DNA from: Microbispora sp. ZYX-F-249
GTDB taxonomy: Bacteria; Actinomycetota; Actinomycetes; Streptosporangiales; Streptosporangiaceae
Length of the DNA: 64,000 bases
Assembly: GCF_039649665.1 (NCBI RefSeq)
Contig: NZ_JBDJAW010000013.1
Location: forward strand, 1 to 64,000
Direction: 5' to 3'
Shown here: piece after piece, positions 5,690 through 59,083 of the stretch
Numbering within the stretch: the stretch's first letter is position 1
How the letters are laid out: every line of letters starts with the position of its first letter
Notes under the pieces: generated by a model
The model's database searches: none
Told to the model about the DNA's origin: nothing
The model's input: only the letters and a program-made list of their open reading frames with translations
Program-made: the position numbers and the translations under genes

Positions 5690-7156
5690 GTGGCGCTGGA
5701 AATAGAGGACAAGTTCGACGTTCCGGAGGGTTTCGTCCTTCCCGGCCTCGGTGGCCTGCCGGGGTGCGAAGGGGTGGCCGAGCCGCTTTCCCACCGGTTG
5801 ACCGCCGTCTACTTCGACACCCCCGACCTGCGGCTGGCGGCCCGGGGCGTCACCCTGCGCCGGCGGCGCGGCGGGGACGACGAGGGCTGGCATCTCAAGC
5901 TGCCCAGAACCAAGGGCGCGCGCCGGGAGATCACCCGGCCGCTCACCCGCAGCGCCAAGGTGGTGCCCGCCGAGCTGGCCGGCCTCGTGCTTGCGTACAC
6001 GCGGGGCGCCCCGCTCGCGCCGGTGGCCCAGCTGGAGACCCGTCGCGGGATCACCCGGCTGCTCGGGCCGGGCGACACGGTGCTCGTGGAGATCGCCGAC
6101 GATCGGGTCAAGGGCACGGTGCTCGGCGACGAGCCGGTGGTGCGGCGCTGGCGCGAGGTCGAGGCCGAGCTCAAGGAGGGCGATCGCGACCTCCTGAAGA
6201 AGGTGGCCAAGCGCCTGCGCAAGGCGGGCGCCACTCCTGCCGTCAGCGCGAGCAAGCTCGCCCGCGTCCTGGGTGACCGCATACCCGCGCCGCGGCCGGT
6301 GACCCGGCCCGAGCCCGGTTCCGCCGGGGAGGTCGTCGCCGCCTATCTCCGCGCCCACGTCGCCGCGCTGCTCGCGCGGGACCCGTACGTGCGGCTGGCC
6401 GAGGAGGACGCCGTCCACAAGGCCAGGGTCTCCTGCCGCCGTCTGCGCAGCGCGCTCAAGGCGTTCAGACGGATCGTCGCCGGCACCGAGGAGCTCCGGG
6501 AGGAGCTCAAGTGGCTCGGCGAGGTGCTGGGCGAGGCCCGCGACCTGGAGGTCCTCCGGGCCCGCTTCGCCGCCCGGCTCGACGACGTCGACCCCCGCTT
6601 CGTCACCGAGGACGCGCGCCGCAGGCTGGGGGACGACCTGCGGGCCAGGGAGCACGACGCGTACGAGCACATCCGGGCGGCCCTCGGCGGGGAGCGTTAC
6701 TTCGCCCTGCTCGACGCCCTCGACGCGCTGGCCGCCGACCCGCCGCTGACGGCCATGGCGGCCAAGAAGGCGGACAAGGCGCTGCCGAAGATCGTGGACA
6801 AAGCGTGGCGCCGGGTGACCGACGCCTACGACGCGGCGCGGCGCGTTGAGGAGGGCGAGGAGCGGGAGACGGCCATGCACGAGGTGCGCAAGGCCGCCAA
6901 GCGCGCCCGCTACACGGCCGAGGCCGCCGGCATGCCCGGCCGGGCCGAGCGCGCCGAGCGGGTGCAGGAGGTGCTCGGACGGCACCAGGACGGCGTCGTC
7001 GCCCAGGGCGTGCTGCTGGAGGAGGCCGAACGGGCCAGGCAGGCGGGGGAGGACACCTTCACCTACGGCATGCTCGCCGGCATCGAGAGCGCCGAGGCCG
7101 CCCGGGCCCACGAGGAGTTCCCCGCCGTCTGGTCCCACCTCCCCCACTCCGCGTGA
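5690..7156 (+). CDS. CYTH and CHAD domain protein
   Basis: The protein has 488 residues with a GTG start at 5690. Residues 1-200 are a CYTH (triphosphate tunnel) domain beginning with the ExExK signature EIEDKF and rich in paired Arg/Lys strands. Residues 215-480 are a CHAD helical domain with repeated His/Arg motifs (VHKARVSCRRLRSALKAF, MHEVRKAAKRARY). CHAD domains bind polyphosphate, and CYTH domains hydrolyse or bind triphosphates. The polyphosphate kinase gene lies 1.2 kb away on the other strand. The stop codon falls inside the first motif of the repeat element at 7153-7401. Confidence 0.92.
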   Translation: MALEIEDKFDVPEGFVLPGLGGLPGCEGVAEPLSHRLTAVYFDTPDLRLAARGVTLRRRRGGDDEGWHLKLPRTKGARREITRPLTRSAKVVPAELAGLVLAYTRGAPLAPVAQLETRRGITRLLGPGDTVLVEIADDRVKGTVLGDEPVVRRWREVEAELKEGDRDLLKKVAKRLRKAGATPAVSASKLARVLGDRIPAPRPVTRPEPGSAGEVVAAYLRAHVAALLARDPYVRLAEEDAVHKARVSCRRLRSALKAFRRIVAGTEELREELKWLGEVLGEARDLEVLRARFAARLDDVDPRFVTEDARRRLGDDLRAREHDAYEHIRAALGGERYFALLDALDALAADPPLTAMAAKKADKALPKIVDKAWRRVTDAYDAARRVEEGEERETAMHEVRKAAKRARYTAEAAGMPGRAERAERVQEVLGRHQDGVVAQGVLLEEAERARQAGEDTFTYGMLAGIESAEAARAHEEFPAVWSHLPHSA

Positions 7157-7401
7157 TCTTGTAGTTTGTCGCAAGTATGGCGGGTGAGCTGCACAGAATT
7201 CCGTTGTGATCTTGCAAGCGATCAAGCTAATACTGGCTGACCTGCCCGAACGGTCCTCGTGATCTTGCAGATGCCGGCACGGTGCAAGATCAGGGAATGC
7301 ATAGTCCCTGGTCAGCTCACGTCCGGCGTCGACGGCTGCATGATCACGAAGTGTTCTTCCCAAGGTCAGCGGCAGTCCCTGCGACAAATTACAAGATCAC
7401 G
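7153..7401. repeat. Mirror-image intergenic array A (CGTGATCTTG, 53-bp period)
   Basis: Three forward GTGATCTTG motifs start at 7153, 7206 and 7259. Three reverse motifs (CAAGATCAGG 7285, CATGATCACG 7339, CAAGATCACG 7392) follow. Spacings are 53, 53 and 54, 53 bp, symmetric about position 7277. The outermost copies extend to a 20-bp inverted repeat beginning GTGATCTTGTA and ending TTTGTCGCA. Spacers share only a weak TGACCTG-like core. The element lies between two convergent genes. A second element with the same design is at 58796-59083. It has no coding capacity and no transposase. Confidence 0.85.
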
Positions 7402-7408
7402 CGGGGGG

Positions 7409-8404
7409 TTAGGTGGTGTAGCGCTCCAGGCTCACCACGTGCTCGCCCGCGTCGACGGCACCCGCGTTGTCGACGGCACCCGCGTTGTCGACGGCACCCG
7501 CGTTGTCGGCGGCCTCCGCTTCGTCGATGGCACCCCCGTTGCCGGCGGCACCCGCGCGGTCCACCGCCCGGTGGAGTACGGCGAAGCCGCCCTTGGCGAG
7601 GTTGCGGTCGCCCGTGCCGTACGGCGCCCGGCGGGCCATGTCCAGCAGGTCCGGCAGGACCTTGCCGTGGCTGCAGAGCACCGCGGGCTCGGGCTCGGCC
7701 AGCAGGTCGCGGACGATGCGCTCCGCCGCGCGCGGGTCGTAGCCGCTCTCCGACAGCGCCTCCTCCGTGCGCACCTCCAGCCCGTGCCGCTCGGCGTACG
7801 GCCGCAGCGTCTGGGTGCAGCGCCTGCTGTGCGAGCTGACCAGCGTGATCGGGCGGTAGGCCCCCAGCACCGTGGCCAGAATCTCGGCCTGGGCGTGTCC
7901 GTGCTGGTCCAGCGGGCGCAGGTCGTCGTCGCCCTGCCACTCCTGCCGGGAGCCCGCCAGCGCGTGCCGCAGCAGGATCAGCGGCATGGTGACGAGGGGA
8001 GCGGCGCCGACCGCACGCAGCAGGCTGCGGTCCCAGGGGTAGGTGAGGCGCCGCCTCGCCTCCTCGATCGGCAGCCAGGCGACCTCGTCGACCTCGTGCC
8101 CGTCGCCGCCGATCGCATGCTGGTACCCCGGAGCGTGGGCGAGCCAGTAGTCCACCCGCTTGAGCCGGCCGCCGCGCATGTAGTGCACGGGCGGGAGCGC
8201 GCGGCCGAGCACCACCCGCAGGCCGGTCTCCTCCCACACCTCGCGCAGGGCCGCCGCGATCACGTGCTCGCCGTGCTTGAGCTTCCCCTTGGGCAGGCTC
8301 CAGTCGCGGTACGCCGGCCGGTGGACCACGGCGACCTCCGGGTCGTCGGCGTTCCCCCGCCAGACGACCGCGCCGGCCGCCCTGATCATGCCGCCGCCCA
8401 TCAT
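7409..8404 (-). CDS. Nudix hydrolase fused to histidine phosphatase (MutT1-like)
   Basis: The 331-residue protein has an N-terminal Nudix domain with a complete box (GX5EX7REVWEETGL, about residues 42-64) and a C-terminal histidine-phosphatase domain with the LLRHALAG signature. This architecture is that of mycobacterial MutT1, which sanitises oxidised nucleotides and acts on dinucleoside polyphosphates. The start ATG 8404 overlaps the ppk stop as ATGA, so the two are co-translated. The C-terminal end contains an in-frame repeat (NAGAVD units) encoded by 18-bp tandem repeats at 7450-7518, which looks like a slippage expansion. Confidence 0.88.
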
Positions 8405-10497
8405 TCGGCCCCGTCGTCCACGGCCCGCCAGCGGCGGCTCGCGATCAGGTGGTGCTGGAGATCCACCTCGCCCCGGTGGCGCAGCCACTTGCCGTCCGAG
8501 TGCAGCGTCCAGGCCGTGGTGGTGTCCTCGAACGCCATGTCGAGCAGGTGGGACAGATACCTGCGATGCTCCGGGCTGGCGACCTTCACCAGCGCCTCGA
8601 CGCGGCGGTCGAGGTTGCGGCGCATCAGGTCGGCGCTGCCGATCCACAGCTCGGTCCGCCGGCCGCCGCCGAACTCGTAGATCCGGGAGTGTTCCAGGAA
8701 CCGCCCGAGAACGCTGCGTACGCGGATCGTCTCGGACAGGCCGGGCACACCAGGACGGAGCGTGCAGATGCCGCGCACCCACAGATCGACCGGCACCCCG
8801 GCCTGCGAGGCCCGGTACAACGCGTCGATGACGGGCTCGTCCACCAGCGAGTTCGTCTTGATCCGGATCCGCGCCGCACGGCCCGCCCTGCGGTGGGCGA
8901 TCTCCTGCTCGATCCGGGTGAGCAGGCCCTGCCGCAGCGAGTCGGGCGCGACCAGCAGCCTGCGGTAGTCGGACTGGTGGGAGTAGCCGGTCAGGTGGAT
9001 GAACAGGTCCGTGACGTCCTCGCCCACCTGCCGGTCGGCGGTGAGCAGGCCGAAGTCCTCGTACTGCCGGGCCGTCTTGGGGTTGTAGTTGCCGGTGCCG
9101 ATGTGGCAGTAGCGCCGCAGCTCGCCGCCCGCCTCCTGACGGACCACCATCGACAGCTTGCAGTGCGTCTTGAGACCGAGCACGCCGTACACGACGTGGC
9201 ACCCGGCCGTCTCCAGCTTGCGCGCCCAGGAGATGTTCGCGTGCTCGTCGAACCTCGCCTTGATCTCCACCACGACCACGACCTGCTTGCCCGCCTCGGC
9301 CGCGTCGATCAGCGCGTCCACGATCGGCGAGTCGCCGCTGGTCCGGTAGAGGGTCTGCTTGATCGCCAGCACGTCCGGATCGGCCGCCGCCTCCTCCACG
9401 AACCGCTGCACGCTCGTCGCGAACGAGTCGTACGGGTGGTGGATGAGAATGTCGCGCTCGCGCAGGATGGTGAACAGGTCGTCCTCGGCGCTGATCGCCT
9501 CCGCGGGGACGAACGGCCGGTAGTGGAGCTCGGGACGGTCGAGGTCGGCGATGGCGTGCAGCCCGGTTAAGTCGAGCGGCCCGGGCAGACGGTAGATCTC
9601 GTTGCCGGCCACGCCCAGCTCGTCGACGAGCAGTTCCAGCACCTCGGGGGTGATGGTGTCCTCGACCTCCAGTCGGACCGGCGGCCCGAACCGGCGGCGC
9701 AGCAGCTCCCGCTCCAGCGCCTTCATCAGGTTCTCCGTGACGTCCTCGTCGATCTCCAGGTCCTCGTTCCTGGTCACCCGGAAGACGTGGTGCTGCACGA
9801 TCTGCATGCCCTTGAACAGCTCGCCGAGGTGCGCCGCGATCACGTCCTCCAGCGGGACGAACCTGCTCGGCGAGGCGGTCACGAACCGGGGGAGCTGCGA
9901 GGGGACCTTCACCCGAGCGAACACCGTGTGGCCGTTCGCCGGGTTCCGCACCATCACGGCGAGGTTCAGGGAAAGCCCCGAGATGTACGGAAACGGGTGA
10001 GCGGGATCGACGGCCAGCGGCGTCAGCACCGGCCGGATCCGCTCACGGAAGAGCTTGCGCAGCGCCGTCCGCTCGTCCCTGGCGAGGTCGTCCCACCGGA
10101 CGATCGCGATGCCCTCCTCGGCGAGCTCGGGGCAGATGCGGTCGTGGAAGACCGCCGCGTGCCTGCGCGCCAGGTCGTCGGCGACCGTCGCGATCCGCGT
10201 CAGCGCCTCGCTCGGCTTCAGCCCGCCCGGCGTCCGCAGCAGCAGGCCGGTCGCCATCCGCCGTCTGAGCCCGGCCACCCGTACGCGGAAGAACTCGTCC
10301 AGGTTGCTCGCGAAGATGGCGAGGAACCGCACACGTTCGAGCAGCGGCAGCGAGGAGTCCTCCGCCAACTCCAGGACACGCTCGTTGAACTGGAGCCAGC
10401 TCTCCTCGCGGTTGAGGAACCGATCGTTGGGCAGCGGCGCGTGCGCGGGGAGGTCGGCCTCCTCCGGCTCAGAGGCAGGGGAGCTTTGGGCGGACAT
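8401..10497 (-). CDS. ppk1: Polyphosphate kinase 1
   Basis: The 698-residue length is normal for Ppk1, which makes polyphosphate from ATP by way of a phosphohistidine. The N-terminal domain begins [19 protein letters not shown] and contains [16 protein letters not shown]. The two C-terminal catalytic domains include [11 protein letters not shown] and [13 protein letters not shown], which carry the conserved histidines. ATG 10497 has no clear ribosome site, and a CATATT -10 lies only a few bases upstream, so the mRNA may be leaderless. It forms an operon with the Nudix/phosphatase gene. Confidence 0.95.
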
Positions 10498-10515
10498 ATA
10501 ACGAAATATGCCCTA

Positions 10516-10537
10516 ACTCGTTGAACGGAACGTTAAC
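10516..10537 (-). promoter_or_regulatory. Possible PhoP direct repeats upstream of ppk1
   Basis: On the minus strand two 11-nt units, GTTAACGTTCC and GTTCAACGAGT, run head to tail about 20-40 nt before the ppk1 start. Actinobacterial PHO boxes are 11-nt direct repeats with a GTTCACC core, and ppk is a known PhoP target in streptomycetes. The match to the core is only partial. Confidence 0.35.
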
Positions 10538-10683
10538 TTCGTCGCAACGAAAGCGTCAGGCTATGGCGCTCGGCCGCCGTTTTCCCTGCTTGCGGCGCCC
10601 GCCGCCGGGTCTTCGTGAGCCGGCATGCCCTCGGTGGATCCGCGGGCGCCCGCCGTACGGGGGTCGTCCCGCGCGGCGGGCGG

Positions 10684-11703
10684 TCAGACCTCTCCCTGCT
10701 GCTGCCGTTCGAGTCCCTTGGCCCGCTCGCGCTGCAGGCGTTCCAGTTCCCTGGCCCGCTCGCGCTGGCGGCGTTCGAGCTCCTTCGCGCGCTCCCGCTG
10801 CTCGCGCTCCTGCGCCTTCTCCTGCTCGCGGCGGAGCTTGTCCTGCTCCTTCAGCTGCCGTTCGAGCTCCTTGGCGCGTTCGCGCTGCTCGCGCTCGCGT
10901 GCCTTCTCCTGCTCGCGCTGCTGGCGTTCGAGCTGCTTGGCGCGTTCGCGCTGCTCGCGCTCGCGTGCCTTCTCCTGCTCGCGGCGGAGCTTGTCCTGCT
11001 CCTTCGAGTCGCGCTCGGCGGGTCTCGCCGTACGGGTGTCCACGCTGGGGGACAGGACCAGGCCACGCGTCGCGCCGGTGAGCACCGGATTGGCGTCCAG
11101 GCCCGTCAGGCCGTTCCACGACAGGTTCACCAGATGGGCGGCGACCTCCTCGCGGCGCGGTTTGCGCACGTCGAGCCACCACTGGCCGGTGAGAGCGGTC
11201 ATCCCCACGAGCATCTGGGCGTACATCGGCGCGAGCTTGGGGTCGTAGCCCCGCTCCTTGAACTCGTCCGCCAGCACGTCCTCCACCTGACTGGCGATGT
11301 CGCTGATCAGGCTGGCGAAGGTGCCCGTCCCGGACGCGGCGTGGGAGTCGCGGACCAGGATGCGGAAGCCCTCGCTGCTCTCCTCGATGTACTGGAGAAG
11401 AGCGAGCGCGGCCCGCTCCAGCTTGACGCGGGCGTGCGAGGCCGACAGGGCCTGGGTGACCAGGCTGAGCAGGCGCTGCATCTCCCGGTCGATGACGACG
11501 GCGTAGATGCCCTCCTTGCCGCCGAAGTGCTCGTACACCACGGGCTTGGACACCTTGGCGCTGGCCGCGATCTCCTCGACCGAGGTGCCGTCGAAGCCCT
11601 TGTCCGCGAACAGGGCACGGCCGACCTGGATCAGCTGCTCGCGCCGTTCCGCGCCGGTCATGCGTCTGCGGGATCGAGAGGACTCGCTCACGGGTTCCAT
11701 CAT
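10684..11703 (-). CDS. TetR-family regulator with long charged C-terminal helix
   Basis: The N-terminal DNA-binding domain is clear (RRREQLIQVGRALFADKGFDGTSVEEIA, then KVSKPVVYEHFGGKEGIYA), followed by a TetR ligand-binding domain. The last 110 or so residues are a repetitive Arg/Glu/Gln/Lys sequence (units such as REQRERAKELERQ), predicted here by eye to form a single alpha-helix or coiled coil. This is unusual for TetR proteins of about 200 residues. The start is uncertain: ATG 11703 is used, GTG 11691 is possible, and TTG 12000 would add a Pro/Ala-rich tail overlapping the desaturase stop. Position suggests control of the adjacent desaturase. Confidence 0.85.
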   Translation of the reverse strand: MMEPVSESSRSRRRMTGAERREQLIQVGRALFADKGFDGTSVEEIAASAKVSKPVVYEHFGGKEGIYAVVIDREMQRLLSLVTQALSASHARVKLERAALALLQYIEESSEGFRILVRDSHAASGTGTFASLISDIASQVEDVLADEFKERGYDPKLAPMYAQMLVGMTALTGQWWLDVRKPRREEVAAHLVNLSWNGLTGLDANPVLTGATRGLVLSPSVDTRTARPAERDSKEQDKLRREQEKAREREQRERAKQLERQQREQEKAREREQRERAKELERQLKEQDKLRREQEKAQEREQRERAKELERRQRERARELERLQRERAKGLERQQQGEV

Positions 11704-58782: not shown

Positions 58783-58795
58783 CCCGACGACGGCC

Positions 58796-59083
58796 GTGAT
58801 CTTGTAGTTTGTCGCAGGTGCCGTCGTGACCTGCGCTTTCGGTCTTCGTGATCATGCACTTTTCGTGCAGTGTGGTACCCGACCTGGCCAGATCTGATTC
58901 GTGATCATGCAATTGCAAGATCACGAATCGGGTTGTGGCTGGTAGTGGCGGCCGCGGCCGAGATTGTGCAAGATCACGAAATGCGCGGCGCAGGTGAGCG
59001 GCGTGGTCTGCAACCTTCTGCAAGATCACGGAGTGTGGCGGTGCAGGTGGGCGGGGTGATCTGCAACCTTTTGCAAGATCACG
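58796..59083. repeat. Mirror-image intergenic array B (CGTGATCTTG, 52-53 bp period)
   Basis: Forward motifs start at 58796 (GTGATCTTG), 58848 and 58901 (both GTGATCATG). Reverse CAAGATCACG motifs start at 58916, 58969, 59021 and 59074. Spacings are 52, 53 and 53, 52, 53 bp. The arms meet at a TGCAATTGCA palindrome (58908-58917). The first motif extends for about 20 bp identically with the left end of array A (through TTTGTCGCA). Two right-arm units share a GCAACCTT block. There is no ORF or transposase. It lies between the SurA-like gene and mazG. Confidence 0.85.

Follow-up and report, generated by a model that had tools for sequence, protein, structure and literature searches.

The array at positions 7152–7401 of the window, the whole analyzed stretch of 64,000 nt from Microbispora sp. 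ZYX-F-249 (our genome G000), probably belongs to a dispersed set of arrays that would be bound by a nuclease of the MTES_1575/DUF559 family with an AbiEi-like winged helix and a Vsr-type nuclease domain. The basis of this reading is the association of arrays with the nuclease gene, which was seen again at further loci and in further families, the fixed anatomy of the repeat units, their placement at gene ends, and the decayed arrays of a sister genome where the gene was not found.

Two Arrays in the Window

The array consists of six 12-bp A boxes (best written as CGTGATCWTGYA), three per strand, with same-strand steps of 53–54 bp. The left arm (7152–7269, plus strand) carries boxes at 7152–7163, 7205–7216, and 7258–7269 in 53-bp steps with linker blocks between them, the right arm (7283–7401, minus strand) carries boxes at 7390–7401, 7337–7348, and 7283–7294, and a centre gap of 13 bp (7270–7282) separates the two inward-facing arms. 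The initial annotation had described six copies of a ten-base motif. A box is indeed present at all six places, and GTGATCTTG is perfect at 7153, 7206, and 7259 on the plus strand and at 7392 on the minus strand, but the minus-strand boxes at 7285 (CTGATCTTG) and 7339 (GTGATCATG) are each one base off. Its descriptions of a 53-bp period, of mirror symmetry, and of near-identical inverted outer ends hold: same-strand spacings are 53 and 53 bp (plus) and 54 and 53 bp (minus), the positions of paired boxes, from the outermost pair inwards, add up to 14553, 14553, and 14552, which makes them symmetric about 7276.5 to 1 bp, and the terminal 25 nt are inverted copies with 96% identity. In the whole window, 34 box matches with at most one mismatch were counted, whereas 100 shuffles gave 6.4 on average and never more than 12.

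As initially described, the array is set between convergent genes, one at 5690–7156 (plus strand), which we take to be CHAD/CYTH-like, and one at 7409–8404 (minus strand), presumably NUDIX plus histidine-phosphatase-like. The TGA at 7154–7156 (plus strand) within the first A box is the stop codon of the upstream gene, and a C-rich tract at 7130–7151 (plus strand), inside the end of the same gene, precedes the left arm. The 3' end of the convergent gene contains an 18-bp tandem repeat at 7451–7522 (GTCGACGGCACCCGCGTT and variants).

A sister array, absent from the initial annotation, is located at 58795–59083 between two genes in tandem. It has 3 + 4 boxes: its left arm (58795–58911, plus strand) comprises boxes starting at 58795, 58847, and 58900, its right arm (58914–59083, minus strand) boxes starting at 59072, 59019, 58967, and 58914, and the centre gap measures 2 bp (58912–58913).

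Abundance and Distribution

A genome scan, proposed along with the initial annotation, revealed many further copies in Microbispora sp. ZYX-F-249 and related genomes. The exact motif CGTGATCTTGYA occurs 77 times (35 + 42) in the own genome, some of these matches being single boxes outside arrays, and the reversed control does not occur at all. The sampled loci of this genome contain 28 elements. From 30 sources (29 loci and the window), 45 arms were obtained, 34 in two-armed elements and 11 solo; the armless loci L035, L044, L050, and L056 were dropped. The 80 genome-contig matches listed by title, out of 104, all belong to Microbispora, and the other 24 stretches were used as well; by probes, the genomes G003, G006, and G007 were assigned to M. 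bryophytorum, M. rosea, and M. sp. H11081, respectively.

Within the Streptosporangiaceae, a strict two-box pattern is present in 16 of 341 genomes and absent from the other 325. Four Microbispora genomes contain 30–167 box pairs each, and the sister genome G004 contains two. In three other genera of the family, a genome may have as many as 718 box pairs. Genus g23 matches the strict pattern in all of its five genomes, with 117–718 pairs, G110, G236, and G237 show 450, 28, and 138 pairs, respectively, and G076, G120, and G124 show one or two matches each. A wider pattern scan matched 39 of 394 genomes, most of them with one or two matches. In G373, G432, and G491, A boxes occur in other dialects with a spacing not fixed at 53 bp, and a few clusters are found in divergent intergenes. 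Spread by phages or plasmids was considered and rejected: two pattern scans of viral sequences gave 3 and 1 matches, which by our estimate are at chance level; relatives of the queries were not found in the viral set, nor were relatives of L405 in plasmids or phages.

Two other kinds of repeats were noticed. At 82497 and 249788 of contig C5 in G124, a different repeat places CAAGATCATTTCAGGAC between two GTGATCTTG boxes, possibly as the end of an insertion element, and 17-bp tandem repeats based on GTGATCSTGC are located at G623:C714:18602 and G029:C7:2261194.

Unit Anatomy and Helical Phase

Random genome-wide spacing of the motif, named initially as an outcome that would speak against a binding platform, is excluded: spacings in 200 Microbispora arms are mostly 52–54 bp, with 53 bp observed 317 times, 54 bp 67 times, 52 bp 51 times, 51 bp three times, and 55 bp twice. 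The claim that the spacers are unconserved was not wholly right, since units share GTTTGTCGCA past the first box and TGACCTGC 12 nt ahead of the next. The sequence following a box depends on the lineage: first units of Microbispora have a GTTTGTCGCA-like sequence there, G036 a CAGGTTCGG-like one. The TGACCTGC-like block recurs across lineages; of the 270 intervals in which it could be scored, 262 have it end exactly 12 nt ahead of the following box, and the slack of 52–54 bp falls on the other side of this block. Little is kept beyond the 12 bp of the last box of an arm. In all lineages sampled, the consensus ahead of the first box is C-rich; in G036, the C content amounts to 54% before 15 arms versus 39% after 183 other stops.

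Centre gaps measure 2 bp in 44 elements and 13 bp in 18, with smaller groups mainly at 12, 19–23, and 31–36 bp; off-phase gaps of 8, 9, 29, 41, 46, and 50 bp also occur. Excluding gap 2 and gaps above 90 bp, the gaps are in phase at 10.5 bp (Rayleigh p of about 4e-5, n = 60), a statistic for which only identical sequences were removed and related elements kept; among eight periods tried, 10.75–11 bp performed slightly better than 10.5 bp.

On average, sixty single arms fold no better as RNA than their shuffles (mean z of −0.25 for sense and 0.00 for antisense), and Rfam has no match at the arrays. As for the GC hairpin that, together with a T run, would mark an intrinsic terminator in the transcript, single arms have no hairpin, and the inner boxes of two-armed elements can pair with each other. 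Taken together, the fixed second block, the gap phase of approximately 10.5 bp, and the missing single-arm fold point to action at the DNA level and favour the arrays as putative sites of a protein–DNA complex; an RNA element was ruled out by the absent fold of single arms and the absent Rfam match. Of the initial proposal of a protein-binding platform rather than a REP element, the first half fits well with an array that is helically phased and probably protein-binding. The second half finds no support, as the repeats are dispersed and extragenic and one copy flanks a gene. Nothing pointed to the control of replication or segregation that was also suggested initially.

Placement Relative to Genes

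Placement was counted with an in-house codon-usage gene caller, and individual gene ends may hence be wrong. Arms near locus ends and arms of identical sequence were left out, and orthologous arms differing in sequence were kept. The resulting 254 arms distribute to 105 in convergent, 146 in tandem, and three in divergent intergenes. Arms facing a gene end begin within −15 to +40 of the stop in 160 of 188 cases, compared to 20 of 66 arms that face a gene start, and the stop codon is located exactly inside the first box in 54 of the 188. Solo arms in tandem pairs are co-directional in 34 cases versus 13 counter-directional ones. In 400 kb of G036, none of 19 arms lies within a gene; an element is present in 7 of 55 convergent, 7 of 223 tandem, and none of 56 divergent intergenes.

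These figures could also be expected of a transcription boundary that serves the host, where a protein bound to the array stops or insulates RNA polymerase and the arms are polar to the preceding gene. The concentration of arms at stops, their scarcity in divergent intergenes, and the co-directional surplus of solo arms all suit such a boundary, as do the C-rich, G-poor tract before the first box and the gene-end positions that are in part common between genera. We nevertheless regard it as unlikely: a roadblock is expected to halt the polymerase before the stop is read, and in 54 of 188 arms the stop is inside the first box; single arms are devoid of RNA structure; the array pattern is missing in 325 of 341 family genomes; and the nuclease gene between arrays is left unexplained. 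Convergent placement and helical phase would likewise agree with a chromosome-architecture or gyrase-type site that, like BIMEs, absorbs supercoils between convergent genes. A housekeeping site of this kind is expected to be conserved, yet the post-box sequence is lineage-specific and the array pattern is absent from most relatives, which makes it a very improbable explanation.

Inward arm pairs enclose no gene in 103 cases. Besides the nuclease gene discussed below, two other single genes are enclosed by inward arms, at 9285–10091 of L261 (G110) and at 967–1722 of L148, which we assume to be FdhD-like and ABC-ATPase-like, respectively. At L074 and L109, where the arms lie far apart, the genes in between appear ordinary by eye.

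History of the Arrays

Seven loci of the own genome were compared with one to four relatives each. The element-free alleles have short intergenes, some of them also miss the C-rich tract, and inspection by eye of these seven loci revealed no target duplication. In the sister genome G004, arrays are partial, deleted, collapsed, or degenerate at three loci, that of the window among them. In G000, G007, and G036, spacers from different elements of a genome resemble each other no more than column-shuffled ones do, and within elements an excess is found in G036. Since similarity between the spacers of different arrays does not exceed chance, we see no recent copying, and a recent burst of miniature transposons (MITEs) was ruled out by this comparison.

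A decayed transposon with target duplications, considered initially as the competing view, is thus unsupported. In its more specific form, i.e., decayed MITEs of a DDE transposase, it would account for inverted arms that are extragenic and patchy in distribution, with some sites empty in close relatives. We give it hardly any credence, as target duplications are missing by eye at the seven sites, solo arms exist, inner spacing is kept while spacers differ as by chance, and where inward arms enclose one or two genes, these do not look transposase-like by eye.

Among 48 array-following genes of other genera, eight match an array-following gene of Microbispora and four match another gene of those loci, compared to 16 and 77, respectively, of 573 other genes; four of the eight are GMD/P450 genes that were fetched deliberately. 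Array positions recur between genera, with some gene-end positions in common.

A Nuclease Gene between Arrays

On contig C3 of the own genome, a gene of 323 codons (9858–10829) that matches the AbiEi and MTES_1575 models is located between two inward-facing arrays. With this gene included, the placement holds for all seven best homologues (G000, G003, G007, G036, G230, G231, and G233), and in G237 a nuclease remnant is placed between inward arms. Three other families, represented by G432, G373, and G491, each reveal one nuclease gene between inward arrays. Neighbouring genes differ at the G432 and G373 loci, and G491 shares a P450-like neighbour.

Within Microbispora, the gene is present in 3 of 15 genomes, all three of which bear arrays, and it was not found in the sister genome G004 with its decayed arrays. 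An array-flanked nuclease was not found in the array-bearing genomes G006, G110, G232, and G236. In G006, whose loci were picked for having a perfect outer motif, 62% of the boxes are perfect, close to the 65–74% seen elsewhere. Homologues of the nuclease exist in 184 of 341 family genomes, most of which lack the array pattern, whereas arrays exist in 16; family-wide presence is therefore not specific, was dropped as an argument for the partnership, and was replaced by a flanking test. Moreover, the same GMD or P450 neighbours adjoin the nuclease gene without arms within the family, so that part of its position is ancestral. The notion of a freely moving cargo at the GMD–P450 locus is weakened, since the location occurs without arms, too. 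Among the large-frame MTES_1575 matches L395–L401, no A boxes were found in L395, L396, L400, and L401.

The aligned array-flanked proteins retain acidic and histidine positions that are presumably the catalytic residues expected of a Vsr-type nuclease. PADLOC AbiEi models match L418 and L417, and Pfam sees only the nuclease part in L418, L417, and L411. A structure model of the nuclease (pLDDT 39) was too poor for use. MTES_1575 has been called a Vsr-family REase (PMC3710099).

Flanking Repeats of Other Homologues

A gene was counted as flanked if an 18-mer is common to both 300-nt flanks at a minimum of 17 of 18 positions. Six of the seven best family homologues are positive, and the seventh, G000 itself, scores 16. 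The genes tested in G432, G373, and G491 are positive in five of six cases, although they had already been seen flanked beforehand. Among the next-best Streptosporangiaceae homologues, 2 of 23 are positive and 21 are without flanking repeats. No flanking repeats were detected by this test for L412 and L444; L441 is positive with the gene boundary taken from its frame and negative with an earlier, wrong one. Control genes are positive in 4 of 418 cases, two of which are G491 nucleases, leaving 2 of 416.

An out-of-sample set was composed of six homologues from Arthrobacter, Tsukamurella, and Nonomuraea, picked from plasmid-collection records by protein similarity alone. Five of the six are flanked, each by its own different repeat. 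The plasmid-labelled records in the range NZ_LR134442–NZ_LR134468 and NZ_LT559118 contain housekeeping genes (serS, ftsH, purB) or are 11.9 Mb long, and are hence probably pieces of chromosomes. The Arthrobacter repeat TTGAGGGCCCAGATAATCCG forms tandem arrays with 31-bp spacing plus an inverted unit, has another array between convergent genes, and occurs at nine places in its record. Two Tsukamurella repeat families occur at 20 places in eight records and at 12 places in nine, all of them Tsukamurella, where a palindrome may count twice. Taking the best place of each of 15 non-parent rows, ten are convergent, five tandem, and none divergent according to the deposited annotation; all 15 are in an intergene or within 7 nt of one, and four overlap a gene by up to 7 nt.

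G491 contains two further nuclease paralogues of similar size, and the repeats on their flanks differ from one paralogue to the next. In 400 kb of this genome, the three repeat families are dispersed and count 19, 9, and 5 copies including the parents, none of the 33 within genes, and the reversed controls gave 1, 0, and 0. Near 136891–137931 of contig C4 (L417), a near-perfect palindrome with arms of approximately 20 bp is located on both sides of a nuclease paralogue; its arms seem to change together in other copies, which would mean that pairing is kept. The third family is a 33-bp inverted repeat around another nuclease paralogue at L411.

It could still be asked whether the arrays and the nuclease gene merely coincide at gene ends, with some other protein binding the arrays. 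The four array-bearing genomes in which no flanked nuclease was found would fit such a coincidence, and so would the many array-less homologues and the GMD-side location without arms. Flanking recurs, however, in other families, where the loci are different ones and each paralogue has a repeat of its own, and we consider a coincidence rather improbable.

Proposed Model

We regard the nuclease as the probable partner of the arrays. The parent copy of the system would be the nuclease gene itself, situated between two inward-facing arrays, and each nuclease would bind its own repeat. In an array, a row of protomers may occupy one face of the DNA, such that the two innermost ones meet across the helically phased gap, where their nuclease domains might come together for nicking or cutting, or else remain tethered. 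In this way, the enzyme could keep and spread its repeats in a REPIN- or homing-like manner, and copies would survive only where they are harmless, i.e., at gene 3' ends and away from promoters. The genomes G006, G110, G232, and G236 without a flanked nuclease, the intact-looking arrays of G006, the two other enclosed genes, and the off-phase gaps argue against this model, as do the many homologues that lack arrays, the partly ancestral position of the gene, and the missing signs of recent copying.

A more far-reaching view, which we offer tentatively, is that actinobacterial AbiEi-Vsr nucleases form a widespread class, each with private genome-wide repeats, and use inward arrays with a helically phased gap like TALENs for cutting or holding DNA at gene ends, either driving repeats and gene through genomes or patrolling boundaries for the host. 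If true, the model would provide a function, open to test, for the common MTES_1575/DUF559-AbiEi protein class and would explain the intergenic arrays at gene ends. The phased 53-bp arrays and the short doublets would then be ready substrates for binding and cutting assays.

Comparison with Known Systems

Several known kinds of repeats share single features with the arrays. CRISPR arrays consist of near-identical repeats of approximately 21–48 bp on the same strand, accompanied by cas genes, and were rejected, as the arms are inverted, the boxes measure 12 bp, and Rfam gave no match. The target duplications and similar copies of MITEs are not found here. Mycobacterial MIRU also form tandem units of approximately 53 bp between genes, but their copies are alike throughout, whereas here only short blocks are kept and the arms are inverted. 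In print, the letters of the A box were encountered in a predicted ArgR site of Streptomyces coelicolor (PMC5839063).

With type IV toxin–antitoxin systems of the AbiEi/AbiEii kind, the protein shares the AbiEi-type winged-helix and antitoxin domains (Pfam and PADLOC matches); in contrast, these are fused to a nuclease here, and no AbiEii partner was noticed among the neighbours read by eye. Homing endonuclease genes sit inside their own target; the inward arms surrounding the nuclease gene look like a target of this kind, and there are the 103 inward arm pairs without a gene, but the same genome retains many targets that seem intact.

The nearest known kind in organization is REP/REPIN with RAYT, given the dispersed extragenic repeats and the gene-flanking copy. 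In both, extragenic repeats are dispersed and often set in inverted pairs, the enzyme gene has its own repeats on either side, each enzyme goes with a different repeat, and abundance tends to track gene presence (PMC2817692, PMC3116915). Extragenic location applies here to all 19 arms of G036 and all 33 copies of G491 in 400 kb each, and flanking on both sides applies with the exception of 21 of 23 further Streptosporangiaceae homologues. The differences concern the hairpin and the enzyme. In place of the palindromic REP hairpin, the A-box arms are tandem arrays without hairpin whose 53-bp steps are in helical phase, although palindromes exist among the other repeat families of the class. RAYT is a Y1 HUH tyrosine transposase, the defining feature of the system, whereas the flanked gene here encodes an AbiEi-like winged-helix/Vsr-type nuclease matching AbiEi and MTES_1575, and the arrays are therefore not classed as REP/RAYT. 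To our knowledge, REP-like repeats with a dedicated enzyme are known only with HUH transposases, and we found no description of a nuclease-and-repeat partnership in the open-access literature, preprints excluded. In several actinobacterial families, a restriction-type nuclease appears to take the role of the REP enzyme, with different paralogues flanked by different repeats.
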